From IMG/VR virus record IMGVR_UViG_3300044641_001462, positions 1 to 20,858 of that record: a DNA stretch of 20,858 nucleotides. One strand, 5' to 3'. The number at the start of each line of letters is the position of its first letter. Position 1 is the stretch's first letter. Of the stretch, positions 2,648-18,358 are shown piece after piece. This stretch comes from a virus. Both the position numbers and the translations under genes were made by a program. The notes under the pieces were generated by a model. That model was not told the DNA's origin. It searched no databases and saw only the letters and a list, made by a program, of their open reading frames with translations.

Positions 2648-3187
2648 CTATTTTATTAATTCGTAATCCTGGTTCTTAAAATCTTCGTAATCTTCACTTA
2701 CATTTTCTTTTAATCGTTCTTTGCAAGTCTTAATTGTTTTCCATACGCTTTTAAAACTTATACCCGTTACACCTTCTATTTGTCTTGTACTCATTCCTGA
2801 AGTTCGGTATAAATCAAATAATAGTTGATCGTACCAATGCCATTGTTTAACCTCGTGGTTTATCTTTATTTCTAATCGTTTCTTTGCTTCAAGTATTTCA
2901 GGCAAGTATTCGTCTTTTATTTGATAGGCTTCCGTTATGCTTACTTTTGTTATTCGTGTTTTACTCTTTTTGTAATCAAACGCCATGTTTCTTAACACCG
3001 TCCAGACAAAGTTTTTATTCAGCTTGTTATTTAAATAAAACCGTTCTACGTTATTTATTACAGCCATCTTTAAATACATTTCTTGTACTATATCCTGCGC
3101 GTAAAATTCCTCGCCAAAAGTGCCTACGATTTTAATCCAGTCGTTGTGGTGCTTACTTAGTTCTATTAAAAACTTTTCATTTACCAA
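2648..3187 (-). CDS. Sigma-70-like RNA polymerase factor
   Basis: This 179-residue protein resembles a minimal sigma factor with regions 2 and 4. Residues 30-41 (AQDIVQEMYLKM) fit the core-binding helix of region 2.2, residues 59-76 (NFVWTVLRNMAFDYKKSK) fit regions 2.3/2.4, and residues 122-162 form a region 4-type helix-turn-helix around MSTRQIEGVTGISFKSVWK. It would direct host RNA polymerase to phage late promoters; placement directly ahead of the terminase genes supports that. No ATG gives a full-length product: the frame begins at a TTG (3185-3187), and the next Met (residue 37) would remove most of region 2. A weak TTG start may keep the amount low. The function is an inference from the motif pattern. 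Confidence 0.75.
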   Translation of the reverse strand: MVNEKFLIELSKHHNDWIKIVGTFGEEFYAQDIVQEMYLKMAVINNVERFYLNNKLNKNFVWTVLRNMAFDYKKSKTRITKVSITEAYQIKDEYLPEILEAKKRLEIKINHEVKQWHWYDQLLFDLYRTSGMSTRQIEGVTGISFKSVWKTIKTCKERLKENVSEDYEDFKNQDYELIK

Positions 3188-3381
3188 AGCGAAGTGAATA
3201 ATTGTATTACTGATAAGCTGGATAAAAATATTAAAACGCGGTGTATTGATTCTAATATTAATTCGTCTTTATATACCCACGTTTGAAACTTCTCACTACT
3301 TACCCAAAAGGCACAAACAAGAAAAACCCTATCTAAAATAAATAGGGTTATCAAAAAAGGTAAAAGTAAGGCGTGTCTCAC
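3181..3381 (-). CDS. Possible small two-helix membrane protein (GTG start)
   Basis: A 66-residue frame contains two hydrophobic stretches (about residues 4-27, LLLPFLITLFILDRVFLVC, and 48-65, RVLIFLSSLSVIQLFTSL) joined by a polar segment with EKFQTWVYKDELILES. Codon choice, rich in TTA and ATA, resembles neighbouring genes, and its stop overlaps the start of the sigma-like gene in the phage's usual style. There is no ATG; the GTG at 3379-3381 lies so close to the predicted -7 box that the mRNA would be leaderless, and a TTG at 3352-3354 is an alternative. A hairpin at 3325-3349 falls inside it. Real gene or mere leader are both possible. Confidence 0.5.
   Translation of the reverse strand: MRHALLLPFLITLFILDRVFLVCAFWVSSEKFQTWVYKDELILESIHRVLIFLSSLSVIQLFTSLW
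3325..3349 (-). terminator. Hairpin with short U tract (weak terminator or attenuator)
   Basis: On the minus strand an 8-bp stem AACCCTAT/ATAGGGTT closes a 9-base loop and is followed by TTTCTTG. The U run is short and the hairpin lies within a candidate ORF, so it may be a weak terminator, an attenuator between promoter 3386-3415 and the sigma-like gene, or chance. Confidence 0.4.
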
Positions 3382-3385
3382 CTCA

Positions 3386-3415
3386 CAAAGTTATACTATT
3401 TTTTTAAATATTCGA
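3386..3415 (-). promoter_or_regulatory. Probable promoter of the sigma/terminase operon
   Basis: On the minus strand TAACTTTG (3386-3393) fits the Bacteroidota -7 consensus TAnnTTTG exactly. Nineteen bases upstream is TCG in place of TTG, with TTTG one step further at 3416-3419. It lacks the tandem 13-mer seen in the four early promoters, so it may be differently controlled. It overlaps the last codons of the gene at 3404-3769. Confidence 0.55.
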
Positions 3416-7747: not shown

Positions 7748-8028
7748 ATCTCAATCTCCTTATTCATTTGTTCTAAGTGCCGTATCTTTTGTTTAAGCTG
7801 CATTATTTCTATTTCCATTTTGTACTGCTTTGAGTTACTCGCTCTCAACAGTTTGTCTACGTGTTCAAAGTACAACACCGCTTCACCTACTTCTGTTAAG
7901 CTCTTTTCCATTGAATCAATTAAATCTTTTCTGTGTCCGTGTTTTTCTTTTATTTTATCCAGTGAATTTTGAATCTTTAAATATACCGTCCAAAGACCCG
8001 TTTTTCTTTTTATAAACTCAATTGACAT
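7744..8028 (-). CDS. Helical/coiled-coil phage protein
   Basis: I do not recognise this 94-residue protein. It is highly helical: LWTVYLKIQNSLDKIKEKHGHRKDLIDSMEKSLTEV, then EHVDKLLRAS and a C-terminal coiled coil EIEIMQLKQKIRHLEQMNKEIEI. It overlaps ninG by 4 bases and probably shares its mRNA. The HNH endonuclease gene ends one base upstream, so it may once have followed the helicase directly. Confidence 0.7.
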   Translation of the reverse strand: MSIEFIKRKTGLWTVYLKIQNSLDKIKEKHGHRKDLIDSMEKSLTEVGEAVLYFEHVDKLLRASNSKQYKMEIEIMQLKQKIRHLEQMNKEIEI

Positions 8029-8029
8029 T

Positions 8030-8533
8030 TTATATGTTTTTTAATGCGTTTTGATATGCGTTATGTGCTTCTTCTTCTGTTTTAAAAGAACCTAAATAAT
8101 TATTAATACCATTAATTTGTATTTGAGCAACCCATGAATGATATATTCTATCTTTATATTTATCTGTTTTCAAATGTACTCCTTTAAATTTACTTGAATA
8201 AATTTTATTAGTTTTAAAAGAATTTTCTCTTTGTGTAATTATTTGTAAATTTTCAACTTTATTATCTAATTTATTATTATTTATGTGGTCAACTACTAAT
8301 TTATGCCCACAAGGAATATGATTTAAAAATGATTCAGCAACCATAACATGAATTTGCTTATGTTTTCTAATTCCTTTTTTATTTAACATAACTCCATTAT
8401 ATCCTTTTGAGTTTATTCCGCATTTTAAAATAACTCCTTGTTTATTTCGTAAAAAACTTTTTACATTACCATAATTACTAATTTGGTATAAACCTTCATG
8501 CCCTATCACATCTTTCCAAATTTCTTTTTTCAT
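8030..8533 (-). CDS. HNH homing endonuclease (NUMOD4-HNH-AP2)
   Basis: This 167-residue protein has an N-terminal NUMOD4 domain (EIWKDVIGHEGLYQISNYG), an HNH_3 core with IHVMVAESF (His62) and VDHINNNKLDNKVENLQIIT (Asp82, His83, Asn91), and a C-terminal AP2-like DNA-binding domain (KFKGVHLKT...WVAQIQINGINNYLGSFKTEEEAHNAY). Free-standing members cut a site in intron-less or element-less relatives and copy themselves by recombination. It is more AT-rich than the helicase upstream, consistent with recent arrival. The pseudoknotted RNA at 8538-8620 ends just before its start codon; whether that RNA is part of the mobile unit is open. Confidence 0.92.
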   Translation of the reverse strand: MKKEIWKDVIGHEGLYQISNYGNVKSFLRNKQGVILKCGINSKGYNGVMLNKKGIRKHKQIHVMVAESFLNHIPCGHKLVVDHINNNKLDNKVENLQIITQRENSFKTNKIYSSKFKGVHLKTDKYKDRIYHSWVAQIQINGINNYLGSFKTEEEAHNAYQNALKNI

Positions 8534-8537
8534 AAAA

Positions 8538-8620
8538 TAAAAAAGCCTTAATGCTTTCGAGGTTACGGACTCTACTCACATTAAGGACTTAAATAATTTT
8601 TTACTTGTAGCCGTAACTCT
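8538..8620 (-). ncRNA. Pseudoknotted small RNA R1 ending in a terminator
   Basis: On the minus strand GTTACGG (8611-8617) pairs with CCGTAAC (8562-8568), while CCTTAATG (8579-8586) pairs with CATTAAGG (8546-8553). The order a-b-a'-b' makes an H-type pseudoknot in which stem b, followed by CTTTTTT, is the terminator and a' lies in its loop. A TATATTTG box at 8627-8634 places the start near 8620. The 3' end is a few bases from the HNH gene ATG. Layout matches R2 at 10568-10659. It encodes no convincing peptide. It could be a small RNA or an attenuating leader. Confidence 0.7.
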
Positions 8621-8626
8621 ACTTTG

Positions 8627-8634
8627 CAAATATA
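8627..8634 (-). promoter_or_regulatory. -7 box for RNA R1
   Basis: The minus strand reads TATATTTG, an exact fit to TAnnTTTG, nine bases before the first stem of R1. No clear TTG sits 19 bases upstream (a TTA is found at 17), so the -33 element is weak or absent. Confidence 0.6.
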
Positions 8635-8659
8635 ATAAAATATATTTATTCTAACATAA

Positions 8660-9733
8660 TTAAAATGGCATTTCGGGGTTTCCGTCTTTATTTATAACTG
8701 GCTCTAATTCTTTAAACGCTCCTTGCTTTATTCGTTCACTAAACGAAAGTAATTCTTTTCCGTTTACAATATCAGGCTTACGTACGGGAAAACTATTTGA
8801 AACGGGCTTTAATTCGTGTTTTTGTCGCATAGCGTATATTTTATTTCCTACCATGTCTTTTATATAGTATTGATATTTTTCTACGTCTAAATACATTTTG
8901 TAAGTACCGTTTTTTGAAACGCCTTTAGGCTTGCTTTTAGCCACTTTTAAGTGTACTTCGTTTTCTTCATATACATTACCTTCGCTATCCATTACTCCAG
9001 CGGGTGGACGCCACGGAATTAAAACCGTTAAACCTTTTCTAAACCATACTTGACCGCCCGCAAAGTCGCGCGCCGTTGGCATAGGGTAAAATGTATGTCC
9101 GTTTTGTGTTACGGGTGCTTGATCACGTACGTGGTTTATAATGCAATTGTGTCTTTTCGTCTTTCGGGCGTTTTTACGTGCCATCCCTAAAATTCTACTC
9201 AAATATTTGTCCTCGCGTCCCAAGTCCGAATGTATATATTCTTCAGTAAGTTCGTTCCAAGGGTCTATTGTAGTTGTGTTAATTGTTATTTCTTGACTTC
9301 GTTCAATTTCATCTACTAATTTATAGAAGTTTTCAAGCGTTAAATCTTCGTCAATAGGGTCGATTACTATAAAATGATCGTTAACAAACATTTCTGCAGC
9401 CACTTGTTCGCCTTGTGTCATGTTATTTTCGCCTATTGTGTACGGTTTACCGATATATTTATAGCATAATTCCGCGTAAATTTCCGCAGCGTTACCCGTT
9501 TCGGGGGAAAATATTACGTGTTTCCAACCGTGTAAGCAACTTAAATTAATTAGAAACTCGAACCATATTTCCGTTTTACCGCTGGCGGGCGCTGCTCCTA
9601 TATAAGTTGTACATCCTTCTTTTACGGTGTAGGGTATTTGGTCGAAAGTCCAGCCTATTGAATTACCGCGTACGTTCTTTTCGTGCCTTATATTGTGTAA
9701 TTCCGTTTGTAGGTCGCTTAGTCTTTTATACAT
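8660..9733 (-). CDS. DnaB-like replicative helicase (RecA-fold ATPase)
   Basis: This 357-residue protein has a Walker A motif GAAPASGKTE at about 46-55, the segment VIFSPETGNAAEIYAEL at 73-89 typical of DnaB motif H1a, a Walker B strand TTTIDPWNEL with Asp157, NHVRDQAP near 200 and DFAGGQVWFRKGLTVLI near 223-239. The N-terminal primase-binding domain of full DnaB is missing; only the RecA-like motor is present. The upstream gene is a wHTH initiator, so together they form the replication module. No primase is seen in the window, so host primase may be used. Confidence in the helicase class is high, in the exact partner low. Confidence 0.88.
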   Translation of the reverse strand: MYKRLSDLQTELHNIRHEKNVRGNSIGWTFDQIPYTVKEGCTTYIGAAPASGKTEIWFEFLINLSCLHGWKHVIFSPETGNAAEIYAELCYKYIGKPYTIGENNMTQGEQVAAEMFVNDHFIVIDPIDEDLTLENFYKLVDEIERSQEITINTTTIDPWNELTEEYIHSDLGREDKYLSRILGMARKNARKTKRHNCIINHVRDQAPVTQNGHTFYPMPTARDFAGGQVWFRKGLTVLIPWRPPAGVMDSEGNVYEENEVHLKVAKSKPKGVSKNGTYKMYLDVEKYQYYIKDMVGNKIYAMRQKHELKPVSNSFPVRKPDIVNGKELLSFSERIKQGAFKELEPVINKDGNPEMPF

Positions 9734-9734
9734 T

Positions 9735-10385
9735 TTATTCGTGTATTATGTTAGGTGTATAAGTAATTGTTTTTGGTTTACTATATTCAATATCATTCCA
9801 ACATTTATTGTTTATCCAAGTAGCTGGATTCTTTCTAAATTGTTTATCAGGTGTATTACGAATATAGTTAGGAAGATTTTCAAATATAAGTTTTATTTCT
9901 TCGTCTTTTAGTTTCAAAAACTTTTCTAAACATTTTTTTCTGTCAATTTGCTTATCAAAAATTTTCCAAAAATCATTAAATAATATTTCTTTTTCATTAT
10001 TATCATTCTTGTTTGTTGTTAGTTGTTTGTTAGTTGTTTGTTGCTTGTTTGTTATTTGTTCGTTTATTATATCATTTTCTTGTTGGTAACATTCGTATTT
10101 ACAGATAGTTACAACGCTAAACTTGTTTGTTGTTTGTATGTTAATTTCATTTGTTTTTACAAACTTTTTTAAAAGTGTTCTAATCGTTTGCAAACTTATT
10201 CCTGTATCAGCTGAAATCTTACCAAAAGACGTAACAAATTGACCTTTTTTAATATCAATACCTTGCCATTGTCCATCTTTATGGTTAGCCTTTAAAACTA
10301 AATACATAAACAAATGAACAGCTTCGCTTTTATTAAACCATTCCCAGTCTAAAAACTTACGGTGTATTTTAATCCATCCAGTCAT
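9735..10385 (-). CDS. Winged-helix replication initiator, DnaD/O-like
   Basis: This 216-residue protein starts MTGWIKIHRKFLDWEWFNKSEAVHLFMYL, a typical opening of phage replication proteins, followed by a winged helix (GQFVTSFGKISADTGISLQTIRTLLKKF). A Gln/Thr/Asn/Lys linker (ITNKQQTTNKQLTTNKND) separates it from a C-terminal domain with FNDFWKIF and FRKNPATWINNKCW, the usual helicase-loader end. The linker is encoded by a repeated sequence that may be the origin (10010-10066), as in lambda gene O. The helicase follows one base after its stop. It overlaps the 59-residue gene upstream. Initiator function is strong by context and pattern. Confidence 0.85.
   Translation of the reverse strand: MTGWIKIHRKFLDWEWFNKSEAVHLFMYLVLKANHKDGQWQGIDIKKGQFVTSFGKISADTGISLQTIRTLLKKFVKTNEINIQTTNKFSVVTICKYECYQQENDIINEQITNKQQTTNKQLTTNKNDNNEKEILFNDFWKIFDKQIDRKKCLEKFLKLKDEEIKLIFENLPNYIRNTPDKQFRKNPATWINNKCWNDIEYSKPKTITYTPNIIHE
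10010..10066. repeat. Iteron-like array inside the initiator gene, candidate replication origin
   Basis: The plus strand holds repeated TTGTTTGTT and TTAGTTGTTTGTT units within the linker of the initiator gene, next to a very AT-rich block at about 9980-10009. Lambda-type phages place origin iterons in the same position, inside the initiator gene with an AT-rich unwinding region alongside. Repeats of a low-complexity linker could also be purely coding, so the origin is inference. Confidence 0.5.
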
Positions 10386-10548
10386 CGCTAATTTTTAAAA
10401 ATACCATCAATGATTCTATTTCCTCATGTGTCATTGTGTAAAATGTTTCACCATGTGAATTTAAAATTGACACAATTAATTCTCCTTCAATTCTTGTAAA
10501 TTGAATTTCACCATCTTTTTCATTAATACCTTTACAACTAATAATCAT
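10369..10548 (-). CDS. Small unknown protein before the initiator
   Basis: A 59-residue protein, MIISCKGINEKDGEIQF, with a beta-rich first half (FTRIEGELIVSILNSHGETFY) and an acidic helix THEEIESLMVFLKISDDW. I do not recognise it. Its 3' end overlaps the initiator gene by 17 bases. The pseudoknotted RNA R2 ends about 19 bases upstream of its ATG, so its expression may depend on read-through of R2's terminator. Codon use is very AT-rich, like the initiator and the HNH gene. Confidence 0.65.
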   Translation of the reverse strand: MIISCKGINEKDGEIQFTRIEGELIVSILNSHGETFYTMTHEEIESLMVFLKISDDWMD

Positions 10549-10567
10549 AATTCAAATTTTTAAGCAT

Positions 10568-10659
10568 AAAAAAAACCTCTTAAATCCTTTGGGGCTTCAC
10601 TTCCAAATTCATTAAAAGGCTTTAATAACTTCTTTAGGTTCTATAGTGTGAAGCCGAAC
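10568..10659 (-). ncRNA. Pseudoknotted small RNA R2 ending in a terminator
   Basis: On the minus strand GGCTTCAC (10648-10655) pairs with GTGAAGCC (10593-10600), and CCTTTTAA (10612-10619) pairs with TTAAGAGG (10576-10583, one G-U), followed by eight T. The order a-b-a'-b' is the same as in R1, with similar spacing: 10 versus 9 bases from the -7 box to stem a, 28 versus 24 bases from a to b, and 28 versus 25 bases in the b loop. Unpaired segments resemble R1 (TTATTAAAG before stem b, CAAAGGAT after a'). It lies between the 40-residue and 59-residue genes. Confidence 0.7.
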
Positions 10660-10665
10660 CGTATG

Positions 10666-10673
10666 CAAATATA
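10666..10673 (-). promoter_or_regulatory. -7 box for RNA R2
   Basis: The minus strand reads TATATTTG, identical to the box before R1 and ten bases ahead of stem a. No good -33 TTG is seen. Confidence 0.6.
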
Positions 10674-13403: not shown

Positions 13404-14285
13404 TTAAATATTTCTGGAAAGTGCCACTTGGAATGCTTGTACCGCTGTGTAAAAGTTAGCCGCTTCGGTATCTGTTAAACCATCTCCTATTGAAGCGAAT
13501 GCATATTGTCTATTTGTCCAAAGATTGTCATAATTACGTTTACCAATATGATATGTAATATTAGGCTTTGTTGCTCCAGAAGCACCCGTTGAACTACCTA
13601 AAACAGTACTTCCGTTTTTAAGTAATTTAAACGCATTGGATGCCGTTCTTGTATTAATATAATGACCTAATGAATTGGAATTAGTATGACTAAAATTAGC
13701 TGCCATATTCCAATTATAAGAAGTTGGAGCGTAATTTAATTCAAGGTCAACTAATACAGAACCAAACCCACCCCCCATATCAATACCACCTTGATTATTA
13801 GTTCTTGAATATATGGATATATGGTTACTATTTATATCAGTTAAGTTAGTTGATGGATTATAATAAGTTTCCGCAAAAGCATTAACTCCATTTGTTTGAT
13901 AACCATTTACTGAATGAGTACCACCACCACTAAATACTAATCTAAACGCAGCGTTTGTATCTAAAGGATTCTTTAAATTAAATTTATGCGTTGTTGCCGT
14001 ACCACCTACAAATGGATAAACCGCTGAAAATTTACTCCAAATGTTATAACCTTTCAAGTCAACTACTAAAGTATTAATAGCGCTTTGTTGAGTAGCATCC
14101 GTTATTGCAGCCGCTGTAATGAATGCTTGTGCATCCGTATCAAAAGGTACTGTCCCAATAATATCAGTTGCTCCAGCTTCAGAAACGGAATAAACCGAAC
14201 CCCAGCCGATTGCATTATCAGCACCTTGCCCCCATCCTATGTCGTTATTTGAAGCACCATCGCCCCATCCATTTGCATTTGCCAT
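13404..14285 (-). CDS. Putative tail fibre/adhesin
   Basis: This 293-residue protein has an N-terminal run of GWG repeats (GWGDGASNND, GWGQGADNAI, GWGSVYSVS) that is common at the start of flavobacterial phage virion proteins, perhaps for attachment to the particle. The rest is Gly/Ser/Thr/Asn-rich and beta-strand-like: DTDAQAFITAAAITDATQQS, INTLVVDLKGYNIWSKFSAV, TETYYNPSTN-type loops, and NWNMAANFSHTNSNSLGHYI. A lectin-like fold for binding a surface polysaccharide would fit. It sits between virion genes and the lysis genes, the usual place for host-binding proteins. Receptor binding is inferred. Confidence 0.72.
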   Translation of the reverse strand: MANANGWGDGASNNDIGWGQGADNAIGWGSVYSVSEAGATDIIGTVPFDTDAQAFITAAAITDATQQSAINTLVVDLKGYNIWSKFSAVYPFVGGTATTHKFNLKNPLDTNAAFRLVFSGGGTHSVNGYQTNGVNAFAETYYNPSTNLTDINSNHISIYSRTNNQGGIDMGGGFGSVLVDLELNYAPTSYNWNMAANFSHTNSNSLGHYINTRTASNAFKLLKNGSTVLGSSTGASGATKPNITYHIGKRNYDNLWTNRQYAFASIGDGLTDTEAANFYTAVQAFQVALSRNI

Positions 14286-14288
14286 TTT

Positions 14289-14732
14289 CTAAGTTGTTAT
14301 GTCTCCGTATAAATACCATTCGTTTGTATCTCTTTTGTACAAAGTAGCTACTGAATATTGACCCGTTGTTTTAGTCTTACCACCGCTACTTATTAAAGTT
14401 ACGCCCGTATCTGGTACAATAATAACTTGTCCTGTTCCGTATTGTGCCAAAGTTATAATAGTTCCAGAAGGAAAAGCAACCGCTGTATTCGTCGGTATAA
14501 TTAAGTTATTACTACCGCCAGAAAAATTTAACTCTACTACCTTGTTAGCATCACTTAAAGCTAAAGTATGTTGTGCCGTGAAAGTTGCTCTTGCTCTATT
14601 ACGCACCTCAGCGCCTGTAACGTACTTACTCGCAAAAGTGCCGCCTCCAGTATCTTGTGCAATTGCAAGCCTATCAGAAGCCTCTAAATTACTTCCTTTC
14701 GCTGTTAATTGACTTATCTTTACGTTCGCCAT
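14289..14732 (-). CDS. Putative fibre or decoration protein
   Basis: A 147-residue protein starting MANVKISQLTAKGSNLEASD, an opening typical of small virion-associated attachment proteins, then a beta-rich domain (TFTAQHTLALSDANKVVELN, FSGGSNNLIIPTNTAVAFPS, GTIITLAQYGTGQVIIVPDT, GDTKTTGQ-like loops and NEWYLYGDITT). The same fold pattern (strand, IPxN, TGxxxxWYxxG end) appears in the 19348-19770 protein, so both may be related surface trimers. Precise role unknown. Confidence 0.7.
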   Translation of the reverse strand: MANVKISQLTAKGSNLEASDRLAIAQDTGGGTFASKYVTGAEVRNRARATFTAQHTLALSDANKVVELNFSGGSNNLIIPTNTAVAFPSGTIITLAQYGTGQVIIVPDTGVTLISSGGKTKTTGQYSVATLYKRDTNEWYLYGDITT

Positions 14733-14796
14733 TTTGCTTGTTTAAATACGTTATTAATTTCTTTATGTTTTCTTGTTTTGGTTTATATTTCTTCAT
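14689..14796 (-). CDS. Possible 35-residue basic peptide
   Basis: The ATG at 14794-14796 overlaps the stop of the connector-like gene in an ATGA arrangement. The frame reads MKKYKPKQENIKKLITYLNK then QNGERKDKSINSERK, and ends 44 bases inside the next gene. It fills an otherwise 60-base gap, and composition is protein-like and basic. Such small genes are common here, but the overlap with the next gene lowers confidence. Confidence 0.5.
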   Translation of the reverse strand: MKKYKPKQENIKKLITYLNKQNGERKDKSINSERK

Positions 14797-15530
14797 AAAT
14801 ACCAGCCTTGATAATTGTTGTTCGTGTCTGGGTACATATCTCCGTTTGAATTAGAATTGTACTCAGGAAATTTATCGTTGTTAAAACTTATATGTTCAAT
14901 AAATCTTTCAGTGTAATGCTGTGCAATACTTCTTTCTTTCTCGATTAAGAAATCTATTTCGACTTTTTCTACGTTAGTGGCGTTTTCTGAATTGTGTTTA
15001 TACACCCCTTTATTAGCTATCGTGTAAGCTGCAAAAGGTAAATATTCTACCATTGCCCAGTGTATAAGCATCGGTTTAACATACGTAACTAAAAGGTTAT
15101 TGTAATCTGTAGGAATTGAATACAAAGTGTCGATAGTAATTTCAGCATCGTCGTTTCCACCGTCAATTATAATTACGTCGTTTACTTTATAACCCGTTCC
15201 AGCCGTGTCAATATCCGCATCGGTAACTAAACCACCCGTGTCTGTAATATCTAACGTTAAACCCGTTCCCGTACCACCCGTAGTAGTAACACCCGTTGCA
15301 GTAGTGTATCCCGTTCCTTGTTCACTTACTGTTATTGCATTTGGTATTCCTGAATTAGCTAAAATAATTTCAGCTTGTAATTTTTGTAGTAAATCAGTAC
15401 CTAAGAAATTTTGTATATGAATGTCTTGAGCTATTTTAACGTACTGAATAAAATTGTCCGTGTCTACGTTGCCGTTCATTGCAGTGAACTTAACTACATC
15501 GTTTCTTGTTATTAAAAGTGCTTCTGCCAT
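14793..15530 (-). CDS. Neck/connector-like protein (DUF6712-like) with an inserted beta domain
   Basis: A 245-residue protein whose ends match a family common in Bacteroidota phages: VKFTAMNGNVDTDNFIQYVK and IAQDIHIQNFLGTDLLQKLQ at the start, and YVKPMLIHWAMVEYLPFAAY, NKGVYKHNSENA and FIEHISFNNDKFPEYNSNSN at the end. Position after the portal suggests a head-completion or neck role. Residues about 60-140 are an insertion with two GTGY...GG beta repeats (QGTGYTTATGVTTTGGTGTG and AGTGYKVNDVIIIDGGNDDA), a kind seen in phage surface domains. It overlaps the portal gene by one base. Confidence 0.75.
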   Translation of the reverse strand: MAEALLITRNDVVKFTAMNGNVDTDNFIQYVKIAQDIHIQNFLGTDLLQKLQAEIILANSGIPNAITVSEQGTGYTTATGVTTTGGTGTGLTLDITDTGGLVTDADIDTAGTGYKVNDVIIIDGGNDDAEITIDTLYSIPTDYNNLLVTYVKPMLIHWAMVEYLPFAAYTIANKGVYKHNSENATNVEKVEIDFLIEKERSIAQHYTERFIEHISFNNDKFPEYNSNSNGDMYPDTNNNYQGWYL

Positions 15531-18306: not shown

Positions 18307-18336
18307 AAAAAAAAAGGTGGTGTATTTTGCACCACC
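18307..18336 (-). terminator. Strong intrinsic terminator after the capsid gene
   Basis: On the minus strand GGTGGTG pairs with CACCACC (7 bp, 7-base loop), followed by nine T. Located 23 bases after the capsid stop codon. Partial termination here would give more capsid than downstream proteins. Confidence 0.9.
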
Positions 18337-18358
18337 CTTATTTATAGTTTATGGTTTT

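Follow-up and report, generated by a model that had tools for sequence, protein, structure and literature searches.

Two RNA units and their genes on the minus strand

The window, a 20.9-kb stretch of DNA from an IMG/VR virus, holds nearly all of its long genes on the minus strand, and two small RNA units on that strand, R1 and R2, lie where the original prediction had placed them and in the layout that it had described. TAnnTTTG is the -7 promoter form of Bacteroidota. The box TATATTTG, which has this form and precedes both R1 (8627..8634) and R2 (10666..10673), is by its sequence a promoter-like -7 element of Bacteroidota, and the same box recurs at the same position in nearly all relatives. 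The 5' end of the RNA should fall 4-8 nt past TATATTTG, which is where the first hairpin begins. A -33 element in Flavobacterium hibernum has been given as TTG (PMC8092290).

R1 spans ~84 nt from its 5' hairpin through the T-run (8539..8622). Hairpin 1 (8607..8622) has stem c (GTAG/CTAC) and a loop with the segment a, GTTACGG (8617-8611); the terminator hairpin (8546..8586) consists of stem b (CCTTAATG/CATTAAGG), an internal loop of AGTA (8576-8573) and GAA (8558-8556), stem d (GAG/CTC), and an apical loop with a', CCGTAAC (8568-8562). R2 is built alike over ~94 nt (10568..10661), with hairpin 1 at 10637..10660 (stem c GGTTC/GAACC; loop with a, GGCTTCAC, 10655-10648) and a terminator hairpin at 10576..10619 (stem b CCTTTTAA/TTAAGAGG; internal loop TGAA/GGAT; stem d TTTGG/CCAAA) whose apical loop holds a', GTGAAGCC (10600-10593). 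Both end in the features of an intrinsic terminator, a stable hairpin (predicted at -12.5 kcal/mol each) followed by a T-run, of six T in R1 (8539..8544) and eight in R2 (10568..10575). A scanner that combines TAnnTTTG, stem a, stem b, a', b' and a T-run returned R1 and R2 as the sole matches in the window, at 19.5 each against a top score of 16.5 in dinucleotide shuffles (n = 60).

R2 heads a replication operon on the minus strand, formed by a 59-aa ORF directly behind the RNA (10369..10548), a DnaD-like helicase loader/replication initiator (9735..10385; phrog_2514, 2.6e-31) and a helicase-like ATPase (8660..9733; phrog_5482, and also phrog_239, DNA primase/helicase). R1 is followed on the same strand by an HNH endonuclease gene (NUMOD4 + HNH_3, 167 aa; 8030..8533), the ATG of which lies 12 nt past stem b. 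Comparison with loci L002-L006, where ~98 bp stand in place of the R1 and HNH stretch (~8655-8023), delimits an inserted cassette of promoter, R1 and HNH gene (8023..8655, minus strand), and R1 recurs in close copies, together with the gene behind it, at other sites in L013, L014, L045 and L053; R1 therefore belongs to a mobile endonuclease cassette.

Two further RNA features were seen in the window. A sigma-factor-like gene (2648-3187, phrog_1740, E 4e-4) is preceded, at 3320-3393 on the minus strand, by a small promoter-RNA unit of a second kind, in which TAACTTTG is followed by a hairpin whose loop reads GTGAGACAC and by a strong terminator (AACCCTA.../...TAGGGTT). L012 and L116 have a similar GTGAGAC stretch that agrees with the locus's own R2-type a' over 7 nt, and the window has no such match. 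A possible bidirectional terminator, a strong hairpin flanked on either side by T-rich tails, stands between structural genes at 18313-18339.

A kissing-loop fold in a family of phage RNAs

The original prediction read R1 and R2 as pseudoknots in the order a-b-a'-b'. The order of pairing stands, and the plain pseudoknot form gives way to a kissing-loop complex of 7-8 bp: ViennaRNA folds each RNA into two hairpins, hairpin 1 with stem c and the terminator hairpin with stems b and d, in which stem a is flanked by stem c and a' by the inner stem d. We use the kissing-loop description because a is held in the loop of hairpin 1 and a' in the apical loop of the terminator. An H-type pseudoknot without flanking stems was rejected in view of this fold and of the covariation of stems c and d. 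In the consensus, a:a' is compatible with terminator stem b:b', and since kissing and terminator thus coexist, no two-state switch is visible in the fold, a point that we count against the reading preferred below. A leader peptide in R2, starting at an ATG within stem b, was rejected after comparison of the sequences by eye, its frame being lost in relatives.

Relatives were gathered from IMG/VR by way of a neighbouring helicase-like ATPase (74 loci), a DnaA_C-like neighbour (few extra) and three pattern scans (many extra); with cultured Flavobacteriia phages included, the scanner identified ~90 elements carrying ~35 distinct stem-a sequences, and where two elements occur within one phage they never have the same stem-a sequence. 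This use of an orthogonal pair by each element fits a role in specificity but could be drift. Type II elements, which resemble R2, are marked by the linker TTATTNA and the internal loop TGAA/GGA; type I elements, which resemble R1, keep AGTAG...(C/T)GAA around a' in 33 of 33 sequences; and type III is a small group with ACAACCAC. Conserved positions are limited to the linker and AGTA/GAA, and no conserved ligand core was seen.

That these are real structured RNAs with homologues undergoing compensatory change in related phages was the central claim of the original prediction, and such homologues were sought and found, the pairing being kept across the ~90 relatives through many two-sided changes in a:a', c and d. 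Pair counts were taken from the type II alignment, and the poorly registered type I alignment A2 was left out as evidence. In 24 type II sequences, pairing in stem a stands at 99% and six of its eight pairs show two-sided changes; covariation over the whole structure reaches 0.431, against 0.203 after shuffling, and none of 500 shuffles attains it. Two-sided changes per cell in the same sequences amount to 46/192 for a, 17/119 for c, 7/192 for b and 9/102 for d, with b and d partly mis-registered; stems c and d co-vary above shuffled flanks. Because the scanner itself selects for pairing, we also used a covariance model stripped of the stem-a pairs. It gave 54 distinct matches, 53 of which pair their two loops over 6 bp or more, mostly over 8, the independence of this test being partial as its training set was scanner-selected. 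The lone exception, L349, reflects a register slip of the test, and its 8-bp a:a' was found separately; the model also recovered L057/L058, which the scanner had missed and which carry CTTCCTAC/GTAGGAAG.

Whether R1 and R2 are homologous to one another, as originally proposed, is answered in part. They fall into two distinct sequence types: a type II covariance model matches R1 weakly, at 22 bits (E 0.35), and intermediates exist, L038 for instance scoring 37 bits. The model's weak matches up to E = 1 (30 loci, 236 kb) are L038, L040, L031, R1, L080 and L059, of which R1, L038, L059 and L080 are confirmed as kissing elements by the scanner. With moderate confidence, we regard types I and II as homologous.

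Nine genome records of cultured phages were scanned whole or in large part. The element is present in FCL-2, FL-1, P12002L, phi13:2 and filifjonk9-1, and a longer form in RAP44 and other Riemerella phages; Harreka_1, elemoA_13-1A and phi38:1 gave no scanner match at the cut-off. No match was obtained by model or pattern in 395 Bacteroidia genomes, a search in which the model was limited to scoring 10 candidates in each genome and lacked a positive control; the type I pattern was not found in GTDB representative contigs, and plasmids gave no match. As the sampled host genomes are without a match, the element looks phage-borne, with the reservation that this search was a weak one. No RNA-seq of infected flavobacteria turned up in the literature searched; the F. 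columnare RNA-seq data of PMC8092290 come from cultures without phage. The impression that no family of this form had been described is borne out by Rfam, which has no match in the window, RAP44 or 11 further loci, and the open-access literature yielded no description of a family of this kind. Judged by sequence, this is a real, undescribed, apparently phage-borne and widespread RNA family.

Placement before genes and a third copy of the loop

Almost every element has a start codon close behind stem b, mostly at 17-27 nt, overall usually at 6-30 nt and in a few cases at ~50 nt, and in R1-like copies the gap to the gene is usually exactly 12 nt. The downstream genes are mutually unrelated and include replication initiators, small ORFs of 50-76 aa ahead of initiators, HNH endonucleases, ParB-methyltransferases and primase-like proteins. 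In L007, L008, L017 and L018, an R2-type element stands before a ParB-domain/DNA-methyltransferase gene and differs in its loop pair from the other element that the phage carries. As the RNAs sit directly before a gene, a role in the control of that gene is likelier than one as a free small RNA; and as there is no space for a promoter between terminator and gene, the latter must presumably be served by read-through or by transcription from upstream.

Many type I members and type III carry an extra copy of the element's own a, here termed a2, between the terminator and the start codon. The a2 sequences seen are GGGCAG, GTGCAG, AAGCAG, AGGCAG, GTTGCAG and ACAACCA. Among the 23 distinct type I elements, 9 have such a copy; in 20,000 permutations that swap a among elements, the number averages 1.9 and never exceeds 7. 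The Riemerella phages have a longer RNA (~135-150 nt) with the same promoter, located before a small gene and an anti-repressor (phrog_63, 6e-65). Five different a occur there, each with a matching a' and with an a2 of 12-13 nt set across the ATG of the anti-repressor operon's first gene (TGTTAATCCAAG, TGTTAAACCATC, TGTTCAAACAAGA, TGTACAATCAAG and TGTTCAAAACCC). The three-way covariation of a, a' and a2 marks a' as antisense to the beginning of the gene that follows; wherever a target is recognisable in the sequence, it appears to be the start codon of this neighbour. In the Riemerella RNAs, a:a' is stronger than a':a2 (-20.8 vs -14.2 kcal/mol, ViennaRNA), so a' would need a release step, either processing, as in C4, or an excess of a2. 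These RNAs are longer, and they are perhaps analogues rather than homologues.

The Riemerella phages have one or two anti-repressor operons (L341, which is RAP44, at 13712-14942 and 30567-29335; L350-L355), and at the head of each operon stands an RNA with an a/a'/a2 set of its own. This C4-like system is seemingly unannotated. Upstream of the Riemerella element, L354 (151-216, minus strand) and L355 (276-341, minus strand) have a sub-threshold Rfam match to DUF3800-VIII RNA (34.8 bits; gathering score 40.2).

R1 and R2 themselves have no a2, nor has any of the 49 type II elements. The loops and linkers of type II elements show no complementarity to the leader above swapped controls. Start-codon targets of these loops elsewhere in the phages are not in excess at 6 nt (9 vs 8.9 expected), and at 7 nt the excess rests on few matches that include near-identical loci, with no clear enrichment. 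R1 and R2 may work through a:a' alone, by attenuation or by kissing in trans between copies; of the two modes raised by the original prediction, stem a setting termination and the RNAs acting in trans, either may apply to them.

Known control RNAs and a proposed mode of action

In C4 RNA, an upstream copy, a1, competes for a'. R1, R2 and 53 of the 54 model matches have the equivalent of a1 in stem a, an upstream internal copy complementary to a', and the family resembles C4 as well in lying on the same strand directly upstream of a gene. C4 of P1/P7 (RF01695) is a same-strand antisense RNA upstream of icd-ant, and the Riemerella relatives precede anti-repressor operons just as c4-icd-ant does (PMC8198154). 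The C4 loops a' and b' bind the target and a 4-nt difference separates P1 from P7 (PMC5320573); in the present family, too, the specificity loops vary between phages. An a2 at the target start extends the likeness in relatives (9/23 type I, type III and Riemerella), whereas R1 and R2 lack it. Other features set the family apart: there is no Rfam C4 match at E<=1 in the window, RAP44 and 11 further loci; C4, whose 5' end is processed by RNase P, has three stem-loops, while R1 and R2 have two main hairpins, with a' in the loop of a terminator of their own; and R1 stands before an HNH gene and R2 before replication genes, anti-repressor operons being found only behind the Riemerella RNAs. C4 and its companion motif c4-a1b1 were assigned by Weinberg et al. 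to Proteobacteria or gamma-Proteobacteria and phages (PMC2864571), whereas our family belongs to Bacteroidota and has mostly replication and HNH genes as putative targets. On present comparisons, part of the family probably works like C4, and R1 and R2, which lack several features of C4, would be a distinct form of the same-strand control RNAs of phages.

Plasmid replication (ColE1, IncI-alpha, pT181) is controlled by kissing antisense RNAs and attenuation, the antisense coming from the opposite strand. Loop-loop pairing and, presumably, attenuation before replication genes are the common ground with the present family, which differs in having both partners in one sense-strand RNA. SAM-II and preQ1-I riboswitches are likewise small leader RNAs with crossing helices, but in the R1/R2 family no conserved ligand core is visible, the crossing helix is the part that changes fastest, and there is no Rfam match. 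HEARO/omega RNA differs in its partner, as R1 adjoins a NUMOD4-HNH_3 protein and not an IscB-like RuvC-HNH nuclease, again with no Rfam match. In the T-even homing endonucleases I-TevI, mobE and segB, RNA hairpins hide the Shine-Dalgarno site (PMC2988022); R1 is similarly an RNA structure before a mobile endonuclease gene, but one that forms a unit of promoter, kissing RNA and terminator moving with its HNH gene.

The promoter-like box, the fold, the covariation, the placement and, in part of the family, the a2 copies are established computationally; termination, repression and competition are our inference. The reading that we prefer, at a probability of roughly 0.55, is a C4-like family of same-strand control RNAs of Bacteroidota phages that repress or attenuate the next gene. 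Host RNA polymerase would start at the TATATTTG promoter and make an RNA of ~80-100 nt, in which the 5' hairpin would form first and the terminator hairpin next, whereupon the loops could kiss through a:a'. The T-run would halt most transcripts, leaving the gene 6-50 nt further on to read-through or upstream transcripts, and the RNA would thereby keep that gene low or time its expression. Among the RNAs that have a2 (some of type I and of type III, together with the analogous Riemerella RNAs), loop a' would be antisense to the start-codon region and could block translation, with the upstream copy a competing for a' in the manner of a1 in P1/P7 C4; it is where a2 exists that repression of the next gene appears well supported. 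On this reading the replication operon of 59-aa ORF, DnaD-like loader and helicase would be restrained by R2, and R1 would do the same for the HNH endonuclease with which it shares a mobile cassette. Weighing against it are the absence of a2 from R1, R2 and type II, the lack of excess pairing of type II loops with leaders or with start codons elsewhere, and the release step that a' would need in the Riemerella RNAs.

A rival that we judge rather unlikely, though it survives best, is pure attenuation in cis, in which co-transcriptional a:a' pairing alters terminator strength and a ligand or a phage or host protein, with the AGTA/GAA loop or the conserved linker as candidate contacts, sets the read-through without antisense action. 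It would account for a terminator and T-run directly before the gene, for AGTAG...(C/T)GAA being kept throughout type I, and for the constancy of the TTATTNA linker in type II, which has no a2; yet the kissing pair is the most variable part, which is not what a ligand pocket would show, it differs from one element to another within a phage, and the co-varying a2 copies are left unexplained. Stand-alone small RNAs acting in trans, their upstream position being incidental, would suit the promoter, the terminator and the compact stable fold, but we think this improbable, given that across many unrelated genes the next gene starts right behind the T-run with no promoter space and that start-codon targets in trans are not clearly enriched. 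Although stem b and its T-run have the standard terminator shape, plain terminators between transcription units, with a decorative 5' hairpin and no regulatory pairing, are very hard to reconcile with a:a', c and d co-varying strongly on both sides.

If the preferred reading of a C4-like same-strand control holds, the three-part logic of a, a' and a2 known from C4 exists in Bacteroidota phages with another architecture, ahead of genes for replication, anti-repressors and mobile endonucleases. With a loop pair of its own in each element, specificity, cross-talk between co-infecting phages and copy control would become directly testable, and the element would be a ready control part for Flavobacterium phages; the R1 cassette would be a homing unit that travels with its own regulator. 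More tentatively, at somewhat less than even odds, same-strand antisense RNAs that kiss themselves and diversify in loop specificity may form a large class in Bacteroidota phages, an independently evolved equivalent of C4 that would control replication, anti-repressor and homing-endonuclease genes and serve for dosage or superinfection control, and free-standing HNH cassettes may carry their own copy and so stay quiet in new phages.
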